The notes under the pieces are model-generated. The model was not told the DNA's origin. It saw only the letters and a list, made by a program, of their open reading frames with translations, and did no database searches. 64,000 nucleotides of DNA from Caulobacter endophyticus (lineage in GTDB: Bacteria > Pseudomonadota > Alphaproteobacteria > Caulobacterales > Caulobacteraceae), in NCBI RefSeq assembly GCF_003116815.1, contig NZ_QDKQ01000011.1:1-64000 (forward strand), in the 5' to 3' direction. Positions 18,608 to 37,236 of the stretch are shown here, piece after piece (within the stretch, counting starts at the first letter, position 1; each line of letters opens with the position of its first letter). The position numbers were made by a program, and so were the translations under genes.

Positions 18608-19162
18608 CTACAGGGAAGAGGCCTCGGGGTCCGTCAACGCCAGCAGATCGTCGAAGATCTCGCGCCACAGCGGATCGCCGATCTCGAAGCCGACCAGATG
18701 GCGGATGAAGAACAACCCCTCGGCCGCCAGGAAGGCGATCCGCAGCCGGCGCGCCTCGGGCGTCGCGGCCGACAGGTCGCCGACCCGGGCGGCGTACCAG
18801 TCGGCCATGGGGCCGACCTTCTCGCCAGCGCCAGCGGCGGCCGCCAGCAGGGTGGCGACCCGGCTGATGGTCTCGGTTTCCTCGTCGGCGGTCGAGCGCA
18901 GGTGCTCGGCGATGATCTCGCGCGGCGTCGGCGATGGGCCGACGGCCTTGTCGAAGCGCGCTCGCTCCTGCGCGGACCAGCGATCGAGCAGGGCGTTGAT
19001 CATGCCCTCCTTGGTGACGAAGGCCGACTGCACGCTGGCCTTGGGCGCGCTGGCCTCGGCCGCGACCGCGCCGAACGACAGGGCGGCCGCGCCGTTCCTG
19101 GTCACGACGGCCTCGGCCGCGTCGAGAAGGCGGTCGCGATCCATCGTGCGTGGCCTGGCCAT
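18608..19162 (-). CDS. TetR-family transcriptional repressor
   Basis: The 184-residue protein has an N-terminal TetR helix-turn-helix (RDRLLDAAEAVVTRNGAAALSFGAVAAEASAPKASVQSAF is the region, about residues 6-45) and a C-terminal ligand domain resembling TetR_C_7 (LRIAFLAAEGLFFIRHLVGF). I chose the ATG at 19162 because AAGGA lies eight bases upstream; a TTG at 19186 would add eight residues and run into the operator. It is divergent from an SMR exporter with a perfect palindrome between them, the standard arrangement for a drug-responsive repressor. Confidence 0.9.
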   Translation of the reverse strand: MARPRTMDRDRLLDAAEAVVTRNGAAALSFGAVAAEASAPKASVQSAFVTKEGMINALLDRWSAQERARFDKAVGPSPTPREIIAEHLRSTADEETETISRVATLLAAAAGAGEKVGPMADWYAARVGDLSAATPEARRLRIAFLAAEGLFFIRHLVGFEIGDPLWREIFDDLLALTDPEASSL

Positions 19163-30213: not shown

Positions 30214-33200
30214 ATGTTGCAACGTAAGTTCCTGCTGGGAACGAGCATGATCGTCGGCCTGATGGCCGCCGCCGCGGCGCCGACCTTTGCGGCCGCGCAA
30301 ACCGCCGCGCCGGCCGACGGCACCGAAGTCGACGAACTGATCGTCACCGGTTCGCGCATCAAGCGCAGCGAATACAACAGCGCCTCGCCGGTGCAGGTGA
30401 TCACCGCCGAAAGCTCGTCGCTGGCCGGCATGATCAACCCGACCGAAGTGCTGCAGAGCGCCTCGGTGGCCGCCGGCTCGACCCAGATCAACAACCAGTT
30501 CACCGGCTTCGTCGTCAACGGCGGCGGCGGCGTGAACACCGTGTCGATCCGCGGCCTGGGCGACCAACGCACCCTGGTCATGCTGAACGGCCGCCGCCTG
30601 CCGCCGGCCGGCACGCAGGGCGCCGTCGCGGCCGTCGACCTGAACATCCTGCCCGACGCCATCGTCGAACGGTATGAAATCCTGAAGGACGGCGCTTCGT
30701 CGGTCTACGGCTCGGACGCCGTGGCCGGCGTCGTCAACGTCATCACCCGCACCAACCTCGACGGCGGCCGACTGGAAGCCTCGGGCCGCTTCGGCGGCGG
30801 CGGCGACGGCGGCAACGAATACACCTTCAGCGGCGCCTACGGCAAAGTGCTCGACCGCGGTCGCTTCCTGATCAGCGGCCAGTACTACGAGCAGAAGGCC
30901 CTGAAGTACGGCGACCGCAAGGACCTGAACTGCCAGGAGCAGTACACCTTCGATCCCGTCACCGGCCAGCGCAACGACTGGATCGACGTCGACACCGGCA
31001 CCTACAAGTGCTTCGGCGCCTCGGGCGCGCTGTTCAACTACATCCCGGTCACCGTCGGCGCGACCGGCGCGTTCTACGGCAGCCGCGCGCGCATCTCGAC
31101 CGACGGCCCGGCCTACGCCGCCAACCAGCCCTTCTGGGCCGCCGCCGCCGCCGACCCCGCCATGCCGGGCTATCGCTTCGCGCCGCTGAACGACCGCGAT
31201 TCGGTCAACTCGCTCGACGCGGCCTCGGACTTCATCTCGCCGGTGAAGCGCTACACCCTCTATGCCGAAGGCCAGTACGACCTGAACTTCGGCGAGCTGT
31301 ACGGCGAATTCCTGGGCCACCAGCGCAAGTCGTCGCAGACCAACGTGCAGCAGCTGTTCCCCTACATCTGGGAAAATGCGCCGTGCGAAGTTAACCCGTT
31401 CAACTGCGCCGGTTCGGGTATCGCGCCGAACACCTTCGTCCCGCAGTCGCTGGTGCTGACGCCCTACGTCTTCAAGCAGGACGTCAAGGTGTTCCGCGGT
31501 CTGGCCGGCCTGCGCGGCAAGTTCGGCCAGGGCCTCGGCTTCCTGACCGGATGGGACTGGGACGCCTATGTCAGCTACTCGAAGAACCGCGGCGAATACT
31601 CGCTGACGGGCATCAACAGCGACCTGTTCCTGGCCTCGATCGGCGGCGACTGGGCCGACACCGCGACCTACACCCCCTACTGCACCGGCTTCGGCTATAC
31701 GCTCTCCAACTGCCACGCGGTGAACCTGTTCTCCGATCAGGTCCTGCGCACCGGCAACCTGACTCCGGAAGACTACGCCTACCTCAAGCTGACCGAGAAG
31801 GGCGTCACCGACTACACCCAGCTGATCGTCGAAGGCCAGATCTCGGGCGACATCCTGACCCTGCCGGCCGGCAAGCTCGCCGGCGCGTTCGGCGTGTCCT
31901 ACCGTCGTGACGAACTGGACGACAAGCCGGGCGCCAACCTGGCCAACCAGAACTTCTACAACCTGGCCACGGCCAACCGCACCAAGGGCGACGACGCCGT
32001 CACCGAAGCCTACGGCGAACTGGAAGCCCCGCTGCTGAAGGGCCTGCCGGCGGTGGAAGCCCTGACGCTGAACCTGTCGGGCCGTTATTCGGACTACAAG
32101 TCGTACGGTTCGAACTCGACCTACAAGGCCGGCCTGAACTGGCAGCTCAGCAATCAGTACCGCCTGCGCACCAGCTACGGCACCTCGTTCCGCGCCCCGG
32201 CGCTGTTCGAACGCTTCCTGGGCGACCAGGGCGGCTATCTGAGCCAGGCTTCGGTCGACCCCTGCATCCGCTGGGCTGGCGACGGCACCTCGGTGATCAA
32301 CCCGGTCGTGGCCCAGAACTGCGCCGCTCAAGGCATCCCGGGCAACTACACCGGCGCCAACCCCTCGGTGTTCATCACCACGGGCGGCGGCGAGAACCTG
32401 AAGCCCGAGAAGTCGAAGGCCTTCAGCGCCGGCTTCGTCTGGACGCCGGAGTTCGCCGACCTGAGCGTGGCGGTCGACTACTACGAGATCGAGGTCAACG
32501 ACCAGGTCACCAGCAACGGCGCGGCCGTCGTCGGTCAGTGCTACGCCGCCGCCGACTTCCCGACCAACCCGTTCTGCAGCCTGTTCACGCGTGACCTGAC
32601 CGTGGGCTCGTCGACCCGCTACGGGATCACCGAGATCGACGGCAGCTTCCGCAACATCGTCTCGCAGACGAGCCGCGGCATCGACCTGACCACGCGTTAC
32701 TCGCAGGACGTCGGGCCGGGCAACTTCACCCTGGAAACCCAATTCAGCTACACGCTGGAGGACACCCAGGAACTGTTCCCGGGCAACACCGACGACTTCA
32801 ACGGTCTGATCGGCGAGCCGAAGGTCGTGGGCAACACCCAGGCCCGCTACCGCTGGAACGACGTGACCCTGACCTGGTCGACCGAGTTCGTCGGCCACCA
32901 GTCGAACTACGACTACCAGTTCGGCACCGACATCTCGGCCCCGTCGAACTACACCACGCCGCAAGGCGCGCGTTACCGCGGCAAGAACCACGCCGAGGCC
33001 ATGTGGTACCACCACCTGTCCCTGCGTTACCGCACCGATACCTGGGAAGGCCTGGTCGGCGTCAGCAACGTGTTCAACGAAGCGCCGCCGAAGGTGTCGC
33101 CGGCCCTGGCCGACCGCGGCAACTACACCTACGGCCGCGTTGGCAGCTACGCCTTCGCGACCCAGTACGACTACATCGGCCGTCAGGCTTTCGTGAGCCT

Positions 33201-33216
33201 GACCCGTCGCTTCTAA
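30214..33216 (+). CDS. large TonB-dependent receptor
   Basis: The 1000-residue outer-membrane receptor begins with a signal peptide (MIVGLMAAAAAPTFAAAQ), then TEVDELIVTGSRIKRSEYNSASPVQVI (TonB-box and plug start, residues 38-64 region). The plug has VEVL-type IVERYEILKDGASSVYGSDAVAGVVNVITR, and a long beta-barrel ends in the canonical aromatic residue (SLTRRF). This subfamily of about 1000 residues is common in Caulobacter and Xanthomonas and is often tied to carbohydrate or peptide uptake. The substrate is unknown; the divergent peptidase hints at peptides. GAGGGGAGTAG precedes the ATG and a strong terminator follows. Confidence 0.93.
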   Translation: MLQRKFLLGTSMIVGLMAAAAAPTFAAAQTAAPADGTEVDELIVTGSRIKRSEYNSASPVQVITAESSSLAGMINPTEVLQSASVAAGSTQINNQFTGFVVNGGGGVNTVSIRGLGDQRTLVMLNGRRLPPAGTQGAVAAVDLNILPDAIVERYEILKDGASSVYGSDAVAGVVNVITRTNLDGGRLEASGRFGGGGDGGNEYTFSGAYGKVLDRGRFLISGQYYEQKALKYGDRKDLNCQEQYTFDPVTGQRNDWIDVDTGTYKCFGASGALFNYIPVTVGATGAFYGSRARISTDGPAYAANQPFWAAAAADPAMPGYRFAPLNDRDSVNSLDAASDFISPVKRYTLYAEGQYDLNFGELYGEFLGHQRKSSQTNVQQLFPYIWENAPCEVNPFNCAGSGIAPNTFVPQSLVLTPYVFKQDVKVFRGLAGLRGKFGQGLGFLTGWDWDAYVSYSKNRGEYSLTGINSDLFLASIGGDWADTATYTPYCTGFGYTLSNCHAVNLFSDQVLRTGNLTPEDYAYLKLTEKGVTDYTQLIVEGQISGDILTLPAGKLAGAFGVSYRRDELDDKPGANLANQNFYNLATANRTKGDDAVTEAYGELEAPLLKGLPAVEALTLNLSGRYSDYKSYGSNSTYKAGLNWQLSNQYRLRTSYGTSFRAPALFERFLGDQGGYLSQASVDPCIRWAGDGTSVINPVVAQNCAAQGIPGNYTGANPSVFITTGGGENLKPEKSKAFSAGFVWTPEFADLSVAVDYYEIEVNDQVTSNGAAVVGQCYAAADFPTNPFCSLFTRDLTVGSSTRYGITEIDGSFRNIVSQTSRGIDLTTRYSQDVGPGNFTLETQFSYTLEDTQELFPGNTDDFNGLIGEPKVVGNTQARYRWNDVTLTWSTEFVGHQSNYDYQFGTDISAPSNYTTPQGARYRGKNHAEAMWYHHLSLRYRTDTWEGLVGVSNVFNEAPPKVSPALADRGNYTYGRVGSYAFATQYDYIGRQAFVSLTRRF

Positions 33217-33241
33217 GCGCGACGGTCATCCGGACGGACAG

Positions 33242-33270
33242 GGGGCGGCGCGCAAGCGCCGCCCCTTTTT
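33242..33270 (+). terminator. intrinsic terminator after TonB receptor
   Basis: GGGGCGGCGC (33242-33251) pairs with GCGCCGCCCC (33256-33265) around GCAA, followed by TTTTT. A textbook terminator 26 bases after the stop codon. Confidence 0.95.
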
Positions 33271-33306
33271 CGTCGCCCCGCGGTCCGGCGCGTGGCGACG
33301 CGCACA

Positions 33307-33335
33307 TGAAAACGCCCGCGCGAGCGCGGGCGTTT
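33307..33335 (-). terminator. intrinsic terminator after the receiver gene
   Basis: AAACGCCCGCG (33310-33320) pairs with CGCGGGCGTTT (33325-33335) around a 4-base loop. On the minus strand it ends in TTTT. It lies about 40 bases after the single-domain receiver gene. Confidence 0.85.
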
Positions 33336-33374
33336 GCGTATTCGGATCGCTGGCGGAAAGCAGCCTTGCCGGCC

Positions 33375-33752
33375 TCAGGCGACCTGGGCGGCCAGGCCTT
33401 CGAGCACGCGGCGCAGGTCGGCCTCGCGGAACGGCTTCTGCAGCACGGGCGAGCCCTTGTGCGGTTCGGTAAGGCCCGCCTCGCCATAGCCGCTGGCGAA
33501 GGCGAAGGGCACGCCGCGCGCCTTCAGGGCGTCGGCCACCGGGAAGATCGGGCGGCCACCGAGATTGACGTCGAGCAGGGCCGCGTCGATCTCGGCCGAG
33601 CCGGCCAGGCGCAGGGCTTCCTCGATCTCGGCGGCCGGGCCCACGACCTCGCAGCCGAGATCGCCGAGCATGTCCTCGACCAGCATCGAGACGAGAGCTT
33701 CGTCTTCGACAACCAGTACCTTCAGGGCGGCGAGGGTCTTCATCTGTTTCAC
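33375..33752 (-). CDS. single-domain response regulator (receiver only)
   Basis: The 125-residue receiver without output domain has acidic pocket VVEDEA at about residue 15, phospho-acceptor Asp61 in LLDVNLGG and Lys106 in QKPF. Its start (GTG at 33752, or ATG at 33743) overlaps the kinase stop as GTGA, so the pair is co-translated. A kinase of the HWE family plus a lone receiver recalls LovK-LovR of Caulobacter, where the receiver drains phosphate from the general stress pathway. The shared stress promoter supports this, but partner specificity is inference. Confidence 0.92.
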   Translation of the reverse strand: MKQMKTLAALKVLVVEDEALVSMLVEDMLGDLGCEVVGPAAEIEEALRLAGSAEIDAALLDVNLGGRPIFPVADALKARGVPFAFASGYGEAGLTEPHKGSPVLQKPFREADLRRVLEGLAAQVA

Positions 33753-35368
33753 GGCTCCAGGGCGGCGAGGGGCAGCGTCATGGCGCAGACCAAGCCTGAT
33801 TGATCATAGGTGAGACGGACCACGCCCGACAACTCGCCGGCGAGGCCCTTCTCGAGAAGGCGGGCGCCGAAGCCGCGCCGGGTCGGCGCGTTGACGGCGG
33901 GGCCGTCGCGCTCGGTCCAGCGCAGGACCAGCCGGCCCGGCGCCTCGGGCGGGGCGATGGTCCAGGCGATGCTCACGCGGCCCTCCGGCGTCGACAGGGC
34001 GCCGTACTTGGCGGCGTTGGTGGCCAGCTCATGCACGGCCATGCCCACGGCCACCGTGGCCTTGGGGTTGAGGCGCAGGTCGCGGTCGTAGTCGAAGTCC
34101 AGCCGCTCGCGGCCGGCGAAGGCCTCCAGTTCGGCGTCGACGATCTCGCGCAGGCTGGCGCTTTCCCAGTTCTGCTCGGTCAGCAGGTTGTGGGTCTGCG
34201 AGAGGGCGATCAGCCGGGCCTCGAAGGCCTCGCGGAAGGCGTCCAGGTCGTCGGCGGCGCGCAGGGTCTGGGCGGCCATCGACTGCACGGTGACCAGGGT
34301 GTTCTTGACACGGTGGTTCAGCTCGTTGAGCAGCAGGCGCTGGCGCTCTTCGGCGCGCTTGCGCTCGGTGACGTCCAGCGACACGCCGGCCATGCGCCGC
34401 ACGCCGCCGATCACCGGCGTCTCGTCGCGCACGGCGGCCCGGCCGCGGGCGTGCACCCAGCGCGTCTCGCCGCTGGGGATCACCACGCGGTACTCGATAT
34501 CGTAGTCGCCCCCGGTGCGGATGGCTTCGTCCATGGCGGCCAGCATTCGTGCGCGGTCGCTGGAGTGGATGGTGGCCACCAGGTCGTCGAAGCCGAAGTC
34601 CTCGTCGGCTGTGCGCCCGTAGTTCGACTTGCAGATGTCGGAGGCGTCGTAGGCGCGGGTCTCGACGTCGAGCTCCCAGGATCCCAGGCGCCCGGAGTCG
34701 AGGGCGAACTTCAGGCGCTCCTCGGTGCGGCGGCGCTCGGTGAGCTCGCGGTCGCCGGCCTGGCCGGCCCGGCTCCACTCGATGGCGACGGCGGCCTGGG
34801 CGGCCAGGCCCACGATCACCGTCTCGGCCCGCGCGTCGAACCTGCCGGGCTCGCGGTGGCCGAAGAAGAGGCCGCCCAGCACTAGGCCGTCGGAGGTCTT
34901 GACCGGCGCGGCCAGATAGCTGCGCACCGGCAGATGGCCCTCGGGCATGCCCTTGCGCGGCGCGTTCTGGCCATAGCGCGGGTCGGCCGTCACGTCGTCG
35001 GAGCGGACCACGCCCGTGCCGTCGAAGGTTGGCGCGAAGATCGCCGTCTTGCGCGGCATCGGAAAGTCGGAAAAGGCCTCGGGCGGCGCGCCGGCCAGGC
35101 CGTAGAGCATGTAGCTCTCTCCGGCTTCGTCGACGACATTGTAGAAGAAGGCCCCGAACTGGGCGCCGATCAGCTCTACCCCGCCGTCGATCACGGCCTG
35201 GACCGTCTCGCCAAGGCTCTGGTGCGCGCCGATCGCCGCGGCGATGCGGCTGAACGCCTGGTTGCGGCGCACCTCGTCGGCATGGGCCGCCTGCGCCTCG
35301 GCCAGCCGTCGGCGGAGATCGGCAATCTCCTCCGTCGCTGACACCGCGTCGGCCTCCAAAACGGTCAC
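33749..35368 (-). CDS. HWE-family sensor histidine kinase with GAF and PAS domains
   Basis: The 539-residue soluble kinase has no membrane segments. It starts with a short coiled coil (residues 10-40), then a GAF domain (about 40-190, GAQFGAFFYNVVDEAGESY), a PAS domain (about 215-335, SGRLGSWELDVETRAYDASD with the RMAGVSLDVTERK exit), and an HWE kinase core with His352 in LNELNHRVKNTL. HELATNAAKYGALS and LRWTERDGP supply the family-defining Glu and Trp. HWE and HisKA_2 kinases in alphaproteobacteria often feed PhyR. The start is GTG 35368 with GGGGGGAG upstream. A consensus EcfG promoter is ~50 bases before it. Confidence 0.93.
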   Translation of the reverse strand: MTVLEADAVSATEEIADLRRRLAEAQAAHADEVRRNQAFSRIAAAIGAHQSLGETVQAVIDGGVELIGAQFGAFFYNVVDEAGESYMLYGLAGAPPEAFSDFPMPRKTAIFAPTFDGTGVVRSDDVTADPRYGQNAPRKGMPEGHLPVRSYLAAPVKTSDGLVLGGLFFGHREPGRFDARAETVIVGLAAQAAVAIEWSRAGQAGDRELTERRRTEERLKFALDSGRLGSWELDVETRAYDASDICKSNYGRTADEDFGFDDLVATIHSSDRARMLAAMDEAIRTGGDYDIEYRVVIPSGETRWVHARGRAAVRDETPVIGGVRRMAGVSLDVTERKRAEERQRLLLNELNHRVKNTLVTVQSMAAQTLRAADDLDAFREAFEARLIALSQTHNLLTEQNWESASLREIVDAELEAFAGRERLDFDYDRDLRLNPKATVAVGMAVHELATNAAKYGALSTPEGRVSIAWTIAPPEAPGRLVLRWTERDGPAVNAPTRRGFGARLLEKGLAGELSGVVRLTYDQSGLVCAMTLPLAALEP

Positions 35369-35417
35369 CTAGGCTCCCCCCTAGACCCCAACGCCGACAA
35401 CACGGCGCGTCGTCCTC

Positions 35418-35442
35418 AACGCGCCGGAACCAGAGCGGTTCC
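35418..35442 (-). promoter_or_regulatory. EcfG/SigT-type general stress promoter for the HWE kinase-receiver operon
   Basis: On the minus strand the sequence reads GGAAC (35442-35438), exactly 16 bases, then CGTT (35421-35418). This is the known EcfG/SigT consensus GGAAC-N16/17-CGTT. It points at the kinase start at 35368, leaving an untranslated leader of about 40 bases. It was the only full match noticed when intergenic regions were read for this pattern. Confidence 0.75.
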
Positions 35443-35540
35443 GCCGATCGTAAACAAGCTTGGCTTCCAGGGAAGCGACGACATGAAACGCCTGCCTCGT
35501 TCCCCTTGGACCACGCAGCGGGGCGGCCAGACGGCGGGTC

Positions 35541-36656
35541 TCAGCCCGCCGCGCCCTCGGTCAGCAGGAAGGCGCGCAGCGGGGCCGGATCGACGGCCTT
35601 GGCCACGAAGGCCTCGCCGATCCTGCGCACCAGCACGAAGGTCAGGGCGCCGCCCTCGGCCTTCTTGTCCTGGCCCATGTGGGCGATCAGGGCGTCGGCG
35701 CCGAAGGGCTGGCTGCGCACCTCGGCCAGGGTGGTCGGCAGGCCGGCGGCCTTGATGGCGGCCACGGCGCGGACGGCGTCCTGGGCCGGGCACAGGCCCT
35801 GCGCGGCCGAGAAGCGGAAGGCCTGGGCCATGCCCACGCCCACGGCCTCGCCGTGCTTGAGCGCGTCGCCAAAGCCCATCTCGGCCTCAATGGCGTGGCC
35901 GAAGGTGTGGCCGAGGTTGAGCAGGGCGCGGCGGCCGGCCTCCTTCTCGTCTTCGGCGACGATCTCGGCCTTCATCTCGACGCTGCGACCGACGGCGCGG
36001 ACCAGGCTTTCCGTATCGCGCTCCAGGACGGCGTGGACGTTCTTTTCCAGCCACTCGAAGAAGTCGAAATCGCCCAGCAGCCCGTACTTGATCACCTCGG
36101 CGTAGCCGCAGGCCAGCTCGCGGGCGGGCAGGGTGGCCAGGACGTCCAGGTCGGCCAGCACGAGGCGCGGCTGGTGGAAGGCGCCGATCAGGTTCTTGCC
36201 GCGCGGGGTGTCGATGGCGGTCTTGCCGCCGACCGAGCTGTCGACCTGGGCCAGCAGCGAGGTCGGGATCTGGATGAAGTCGACGCCGCGCTTGTAGATC
36301 GCCGCCGCGAAGCCGGCGAGGTCGCCGATCACGCCGCCGCCGAAGGCCACGATCATGTCGCCGCGTTCCAGGTTCAGCGCCAGCAGCTGGTCCGACAGGT
36401 GGGCCAGGCCCTCGAAGCTCTTGGTCTCCTCGCCCGGCGGCAGCACGATCACGTCGACCGAGGCGCCGGCCTTCTCCAGCGACACCGACAGCCGCTCCAC
36501 ATGGTGCTCGCCGACATTGGCGTCGGTGACCACGGCGCAGCGCTTGCGCTTGGAGAGGAACGGCAGCACGTGCTCGCCGGCCCTGTCGATCAGGCCCGTG
36601 CCGATGACGACGTCGTAGGCGCGATCGCCCAGGCCCACGGGAACGGTGCGGATCAC
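35541..36656 (-). CDS. aroB: 3-dehydroquinate synthase
   Basis: The 371-residue cytoplasmic enzyme carries out the second step of the shikimate pathway, closing DAHP to 3-dehydroquinate with NAD+ and a metal ion. Typical segments are [45 protein letters not shown] (region, about residues 105-150), NLIGAFHQP, and the metal-ligand region [12 protein letters not shown]. Length is normal. It lies four bases after aroK in the common alphaproteobacterial aroK-aroB pair. Confidence 0.96.
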
Positions 36657-36660
36657 GGTC

Positions 36661-37236
36661 TTACTCTCCGGTAGCGGACGCGGCGGCGAGGCGGCCCTGC
36701 AAGGCGGCGATCACGGCCTCGACGGCCACCATGTGGGGCGTGTCGCCGGTCTCGACGGTCAGGTGGGCCTCGCCATAGGCGGGGTAGCGGGTCACGGCCT
36801 GCTCGCGCAGGACGTCCATCGGGTCGCGGTTCTTCAGCAGCGGACGGCCGTCCTTGCGGCCGACGCGGCGGGCCAGCAGCTCCAGGTCTGCCTTCAGCCA
36901 GACGGCGATGGCCTTGTCCTTGATCAGGGCGCGGGTCTCGGCGTTGACGAAGGCCCCGCCGCCGGTGGCCAGCACGTGCGGCGGCTCGTCCAGCAGGCGG
37001 GCGATGACCCGGCGCTCGCCGTCGCGGAAGGCTTCCTCGCCCATCTCGGCGAAGATCTCGGGGATCGAGCGGCCGGCGGCGCGCTCGACCTCGTTGTCGG
37101 CGTCGCGGAACGGCAGGTCCAGCGTATTGGCCAGGCGCCGGCCCACGCTGGACTTGCCCACGCCCATCAGCCCGACCAGCACGATGGTCCGGTCACGGAG
37201 GTCTGGATGGCGGGGCGGGGCGAGGTCGGCGGTCAT
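36661..37236 (-). CDS. aroK: shikimate kinase
   Basis: The 191-residue enzyme phosphorylates shikimate with ATP. Walker A is [11 protein letters not shown] (about residues 22-32), RDADNEVE holds the Asp that binds shikimate, LATGGGAFV is the glycine loop, and RPLLKNRDP is the lid region. It is transcribed with aroB four bases downstream. An inverted repeat at 37324-37361 (GGGGCGGG/CCCGCCCC) upstream may mark the end of the oprB transcript. Confidence 0.96.

Follow-up and report, generated by a model that had tools for sequence, protein, structure and literature searches.

An HWE kinase and an MrrA-type receiver behind a predicted general stress promoter in Caulobacter endophyticus

In most Caulobacter species the sigma factor of the general stress response appears, from the conservation of its promoter motif, to switch on the gene of its own MrrA-type hub and, usually, a sensor kinase gene with it. 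The window, the whole stretch of 64,000 nucleotides of the Caulobacter endophyticus genome analysed here, carries one such locus, in which a motif of the EcfG type precedes an operon of an HWE kinase and a single-domain receiver. MrrA is the meeting point of many kinases ahead of PhyR, and we consider it likely that EcfG transcribes its own hub here along with a dedicated HWE kinase, giving a feedback at the level of the hub. To our knowledge, the relay has been worked out in two organisms, C. crescentus and Sphingomonas melonis. The initial annotation had read the locus as a feedback loop resembling LovK-LovR; its EcfG/SigT-type promoter, its kinase, its co-oriented receiver and the feedback architecture all hold up, and the comparison of its receiver with that of LovK-LovR has to be given up.

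The promoter and its conservation

The predicted EcfG/SigT-type promoter lies on the minus strand at 35418 to 35442 (GGAACCGCTCTGGTTCCGGCGCGTT, read from 35442 to 35418), with GGAAC as the -35 element (35442-35438), a spacer of 16 nt and CGTT as the -10 element (35421-35418). It matches GGAAC-N16-CGTT exactly and so combines the two elements, the separation of 16-17 nt and the nearness to a start codon by which promoters of this type are recognised. Its end is separated by 49 nt from the GTG start (35368) of the 539-aa kinase ORF, in good agreement with the distance of about 50 bases first noted. The operon genes and the promoter are co-oriented with aroK and aroB, which are located upstream, and a TonB receptor gene converges on the operon from the opposite side. 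A perfect inverted repeat within the promoter, GGAACC-N5-GGTTCC (35426-35442), was considered as an operator and rejected; the spacer varies, the repeat is not kept in orthologues and it is judged a coincidence of sequence.

Counting the motif says little by itself. The window holds two strict motifs where 1.45 would be expected, the other one lying at 19074-19098 on the minus strand, and the 5.4-Mb genome holds 67 as against 64 for the reversed pattern, which led us to reject the count alone as a measure of significance. This lack of a genome-wide excess is what speaks for the motif being a chance match, with the operon read only from the upstream aroKB genes or from a sigma-70 promoter embedded in the kinase gene. 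The expected chance rate is about 6e-6 per base per strand, or about 0.001 for the 150 nt upstream of any one gene, and it speaks against a chance match that 47 of 58 genomes, with spacers that have diverged, have the motif at this position, among them genomes in which aroB lies apart from the locus and genomes that have lost the kinase. We regard a chance match as extremely improbable, because of the position of the motif, its conservation before orthologues and the presence of the same motif before nepR-sigT and phyR.

The latter genes belong to the stress core of the same genome, where nepR is followed by a SigT-like sigma gene, phyR is divergent and a membrane HWE kinase gene adjoins; strict motifs precede both nepR-sigT and phyR. 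NepR passes the cut-off of the NCBIfam equivalog antisigmaTNepR (“anti-sigma T factor NepR”) and matches Pfam NepR, and the motif is thus found in a genome that encodes the cognate sigma factor, anti-sigma factor and PhyR. The surroundings of this core are rich in the motif, with seven strict copies in 5.5 kb (C43:24192-29645), of which those adjoining nepR and phyR are two clear promoters.

The conservation was followed in 58 receiver-bearing genomes of the genus, by scanning 2.3 kb upstream of the receiver gene. Besides the 47 genomes with the strict motif, 2 of 58 of the same regions matched in the reversed-pattern control, and about 0.03 per genome would be expected. The initial annotation had named one finding that would speak against it, a promoter not conserved before orthologous kinases; the strict motif precedes the kinase in all 35 genomes in which the kinase has at least 300 codons. 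It also precedes the receiver in 12 of the 23 genomes without a kinase, at -74 to -136 (n=8) or -209 to -291 (n=4), and it stands immediately before the receiver in G019, G025, G014, G035, G026, G040, G011 and G029. Over all genomes there are 44 distinct motif sequences in which the spacer positions vary freely, and two positions that the search did not demand are nevertheless kept, a C at position 6 (40/41) and a G at position 21 (35/41). The motif is a strict phylogenetic footprint. The constant unit, on this comparison, is evidently EcfG promoter, optional kinase and receiver, and the target for which the promoter is conserved is, by the same token, presumably the receiver. In 11 genomes of the genus, the C. 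crescentus-like ones among them, the strict motif is missing, so that the hub need not be under EcfG.

The kinase and the receiver

The first gene of the operon (33749..35368, minus strand, GTG start) is predicted from its ORF and Pfam matches to encode a 539-aa HWE-family sensor histidine kinase, with a GAF domain (34778..35221; GAF_2, 1.5e-16), a PAS_3 domain (34418..34642; 1.1e-12) and an HWE dimerisation/phosphoacceptor domain (34103..34324; HWE_HK, 1.8e-27, also found in a genome-wide HWE_HK search), all on the same strand. Since Pfam finds no domain beyond GAF, PAS and kinase, the protein is probably cytoplasmic, as first proposed; in place of a LOV photosensor, for which Pfam gave no match in this kinase, there are the GAF and PAS_3 domains. 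Together with the HWE_HK domain, the HRxxN H-box, the HEL...N box and the glycine-rich box that characterise the family are all present, and the H-box ELNHRVKN, the HEL(A/T)TN box (HELATNxxKYGA) and the GFG(A/V)RLL box (RxGFGxRLL) are conserved in 35 orthologues. Because these catalytic motifs are intact, the kinase can be expected to be active, in contrast to PhyK and LovK, whose role is that of phosphotransferases (PMC5964349). At three loci (L055 in G016, L316 in G002 and L303 in G085) kinases of about 360 codons lack the GAF domain and have the EcfG motif before them and the receiver after them; in these versions the sensor domain has evidently been swapped or lost within a constant frame.

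The GAF domain offers a further lead. Its His145 (codon 34936-34934), in GHLPVRSY, aligns with the heme-ligand region of the DosS and DosT GAF domains, and a sequence comparison with solved structures gives, below E = 0.001, the heme GAF domains of DosT and DevS and no others. In DosS and DosT the proximal histidine of HxPxRxxL is a heme ligand, and His145 falls into this pattern; the same histidine recurs in 32 of the 33 kinases that were aligned and in each of 22 diverse GAF domains. A tyrosine of the distal pocket also has a role in these proteins, and at the aligned position the kinase alignment shows Phe, in a few kinases Leu, and no such tyrosine. A fold search with the domain ranks the PtsP GAF domain and DosS/DosT first, and because PtsP GAF domains are returned besides DosS/DosT, heme binding by this domain is a lead only.

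The second gene is a Response_reg ORF on the same strand (33375-33752), which bears out the single-domain receiver first described behind the kinase. An alternative GTG start at 33752 overlaps the kinase stop, and the probable ATG start at 33743 gives a gene of 33375..33743 with the predicted phospho-Asp58 at codon 33572-33570. The protein carries PFAFASGYG, D-V-N and the Lys in LQKPF, and Asn at D+2 and Tyr at T+2 are conserved. These are the marks of a FATGUY receiver (PFxFATGY, Asn at D+2, Tyr at T+2) with Ser in place of Thr, and the FxSGY form with this replacement has been described for the CckA receiver domain (PMC9981736). It is not of the LovR type, and EL_LovR is only 32% identical to it. 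The FATGUY type, that of Sma0114, SdrG and MrrA, and this low identity led us to reject the analogy with LovK-LovR at the receiver, which had been part of the initial annotation.

Several observations identify the receiver, on Pfam, synteny and identity, as a predicted MrrA orthologue. An orthologue is found in all 49 good genomes of the genus at 62-100% identity, and the next paralogue follows at about 50-57%. MrrA is the single-domain receiver CC3015 of C. crescentus, and CC3013 is the TonB receptor gene chvT (PMC5964349, PMC6237742).

The position on the C. crescentus map was set with the PhyR structure 3n0r as anchor, which we take to be that of C. crescentus PhyR and to which the PhyR of G001 is 100% and that of G100 99% identical. 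In G001 the orthologue, 91% identical to the receiver of the window, stands between a CorC/CBS gene and a TonB receptor gene, followed by a cytidine deaminase gene (cdd), a J-domain gene, aroB and aroK, with no other receiver gene in this stretch. The synteny with CC3013 and CC3015, the 91% identity, the gap to the paralogues and the lack of another receiver nearby mean that, on comparative grounds, the receiver of the window is orthologous to MrrA of C. crescentus, which serves the general stress response as the hub of its phosphorelay. The MrrA phosphosite has been named Asp53 (PMC5964349); in the orthologue the predicted phosphosite is residue 58 counted from the ATG, and residue 53 is also an Asp. 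The two proteins share type and neighbourhood and differ in their setting: in G001 and G100 mrrA is alone behind a kinase remnant without an EcfG motif, and here the gene comes second in an operon of the EcfG type, after that of an intact HWE kinase.

The nearest solved relative of the receiver is Sma0114 (2lpm, E 1.5e-30, 50% identity), with SdrG next. SMa0113-SMa0114 of Sinorhizobium meliloti likewise joins an HWE kinase to a FATGUY receiver, and its reported role in catabolite repression (PMC5964349) differs from the stress relay proposed here. It is therefore conceivable that kinase and receiver form a separate two-component pathway that is merely co-induced by EcfG and has another output, such as the catabolite repression and polyhydroxybutyrate metabolism proposed for that pair, and the metabolic role reported for the closest solved receiver fits this. 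We find it very improbable, given that synteny and the identity gap to the paralogues mark the receiver as MrrA, whose deletion in C. crescentus abolishes SigT activity (PMC5964349).

A second, embedded promoter may serve the receiver. A sigma-70-like promoter, TTGTCG-N18-TATGAT, is predicted in the 3' end of the kinase gene (33803..33832, minus strand), 60 nt before the receiver ATG, and is the only match in a scan of 33100-36700 in which 0.1 would be expected. The Tyr-Asp pair that it overlaps is encoded by TAT in 94% and by GAT in 100% of the orthologues with those residues; at no other conserved Tyr or Asp column does TAT exceed 50% or GAT 31%. At the -35 position the rare codon CTA is used in 17 of 35 kinases, with 40 CTA among 1848 Leu codons in all. 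The sigma-70 pattern is kept in 39 of 58 genomes, including ones without the kinase frame. We infer a housekeeping promoter for basal expression of the receiver, which would offer the hub gene a way to survive repeated loss of the gene before it.

The proposed loop and its sign

In C. crescentus MrrA is phosphorylated by at least six kinases, HWE ones included, and hands the phosphate to PhyK, from which it reaches PhyR; SigT is inactive when MrrA is missing, which makes MrrA an essential positive hub and not a phosphate sink (PMC5964349). The control of the sigma factor by HWE kinases through PhyR, assumed in the initial annotation, holds in C. crescentus by way of MrrA and PhyK and is not direct. 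Indeed the general stress response, its HWE kinases, the FATGUY hubs and a SigT-controlled LovKR are already known (PMC5964349, PMC3073932). In the literature covered, which was incomplete, we found neither a report of an MrrA- or SdrG-type hub controlled by EcfG nor any description of a kinase-mrrA operon or of how C. crescentus lost it by deletion.

The loop that we propose would run as follows. Phosphorylated PhyR would release EcfG (SigT) from NepR, and the released sigma factor would bind the promoter at 35442-35418 and transcribe the gene of the HWE kinase and then that of the MrrA orthologue. MrrA would carry phosphate from HWE kinases to PhyK and then to PhyR, and extra MrrA together with a dedicated kinase under stress would raise the capacity of the relay. 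The weak housekeeping promoter in the 3' end of the kinase gene would supply basal MrrA, so that the relay can start, and the sign of the loop would be set by the kinase's own GAF-PAS sensor. The sequences themselves show the promoter motif and how far it is conserved, the orthology of the receiver, the intact motifs of the kinase and its repeated loss, and the embedded promoter motif with the constraint on it; the dependence on EcfG, the phosphotransfer from kinase to receiver in this pair and a net positive sign are what we infer. A kinase that acts mostly as a phosphatase could reverse this sign: HWE kinases that are bifunctional are able to remove phosphate from MrrA as well (PMC5964349), and the loop would then be negative.

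This possibility leads to the most serious alternative, a negative feedback like that of LovK-LovR, in which the EcfG-induced kinase would act mainly as a phosphatase of, or a drain on, the receiver and so damp the response. LovK-LovR is likewise a kinase-receiver operon under SigT, and the pair in the window stands behind an EcfG-type promoter as well; in C. crescentus LovKR damps the response, and two of the MrrA kinases dephosphorylate MrrA upon ATP depletion (PMC5964349). The two systems nonetheless differ in that LovK-LovR combines a LOV sensor with a LovR-type receiver that functions as a phosphate sink, and the window pair combines GAF-PAS with a FATGUY receiver of the MrrA type. Elsewhere the genome encodes another kinase, one with a LOV domain, together with a LovR-like receiver and behind an EcfG motif of its own, and in the genus the EcfG promoter stands before the receiver even without the kinase. 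A damping loop is, on these points, unlikely.

Further parallels are found in Sphingomonas melonis Fr1, where the stress relay of the Pak kinases, SdrG and PakB-PkrB likewise has kinases of the HWE/HisKA2 type that feed into a FATGUY receiver, and where the kinase-associated receiver PkrB is not the hub. For the genus and its sister genus as a whole we lean towards the view that in most Caulobacter, and in the sister genus, EcfG transcribes its own hub, often with a kinase, that the embedded housekeeping promoter guarantees a basal supply of it, and that C. crescentus, by deletion, and S. melonis are without the loop. If so, there would be positive feedback at the hub in most Caulobacter, with possible effects on threshold, memory and bistability that lie beyond the reach of the C. 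crescentus model.

Loss of the kinase and range of the arrangement

Traces of the kinase remain in several genomes that have lost it. In the C. crescentus-like genomes G001 and G100 mrrA is preceded by 73-74 codons of the kinase 3' end; the EcfG motif was not found, and a search for a degenerate one before mrrA in the C. crescentus-like genomes gave no candidate beyond what shuffled sequence yields. In G038 and G081 the sequence is GGAACC-N17-CATT, which departs from the motif by a single mismatch. G031 keeps the promoter and 41 kinase codons; G044 and G021 also keep the promoter, along with a DNA remnant of the kinase, and one clade (G013, G009, G024 and G082) has a kinase remnant without the promoter. 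A tree of the receiver, built on 119 columns and with many weak forks, places both G031 and the C. crescentus-like genomes within groups that bear the kinase, and the kinase losses in these genomes would therefore be derived. The kinase is thus apparently an accessory gene that was lost several times. The absence of CC3015 from the published SigT carbon-starvation table (PMC3073932) fits the loss of the promoter in C. crescentus, where the kinase and the stress promoter both seem to have gone by deletion, and the loop seems for this reason to have been missed there. The deletion scar would explain the solitary look of the gene in C. crescentus-like genomes, and it makes the loop directly testable by comparison of closely related species.

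MrrA-type receivers are found across the family. In one other genus (g21) the strict motif lies upstream in 12 of 20 loci, one of which (L322) is distant and doubtful. In another (g17, L341-L356) 15 of 16 loci have an HWE kinase ahead of the receiver, and the motif is present in only two; the reversed control gave one match over all 40 loci of the g21 and g17 survey. Because the g17 kinase precedes the receiver in nearly all loci, mostly without the motif, the comparison suggests that the pairing of kinase and receiver is older than the genus. A general control of the hub by EcfG was rejected, as 0 of 30 loci of another family, with clear sdrG genes of the Sphingomonas type, have an EcfG-like motif within 300 nt and g17 is mostly without it; so far as tested, such control is by its predicted promoters a trait of the Caulobacteraceae.

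Other sensor genes of the C. endophyticus genome carry the motif as well. A strict EcfG motif lies shortly before a plausible start codon in 4 of its 23 HWE/HisKA2 kinase genes, where about 0.02 would be expected; these are the kinase of the window, the LOV kinase with the LovR-like receiver, a PAS-PAS HWE kinase and a bacteriophytochrome-HWE-receiver hybrid, and the four motifs lie at C11:35418 (the window), C64:16802+, C65:44233- and C57:60247-. EcfG appears to supply a whole set of its own sensors, and two of them are predicted photoreceptors.
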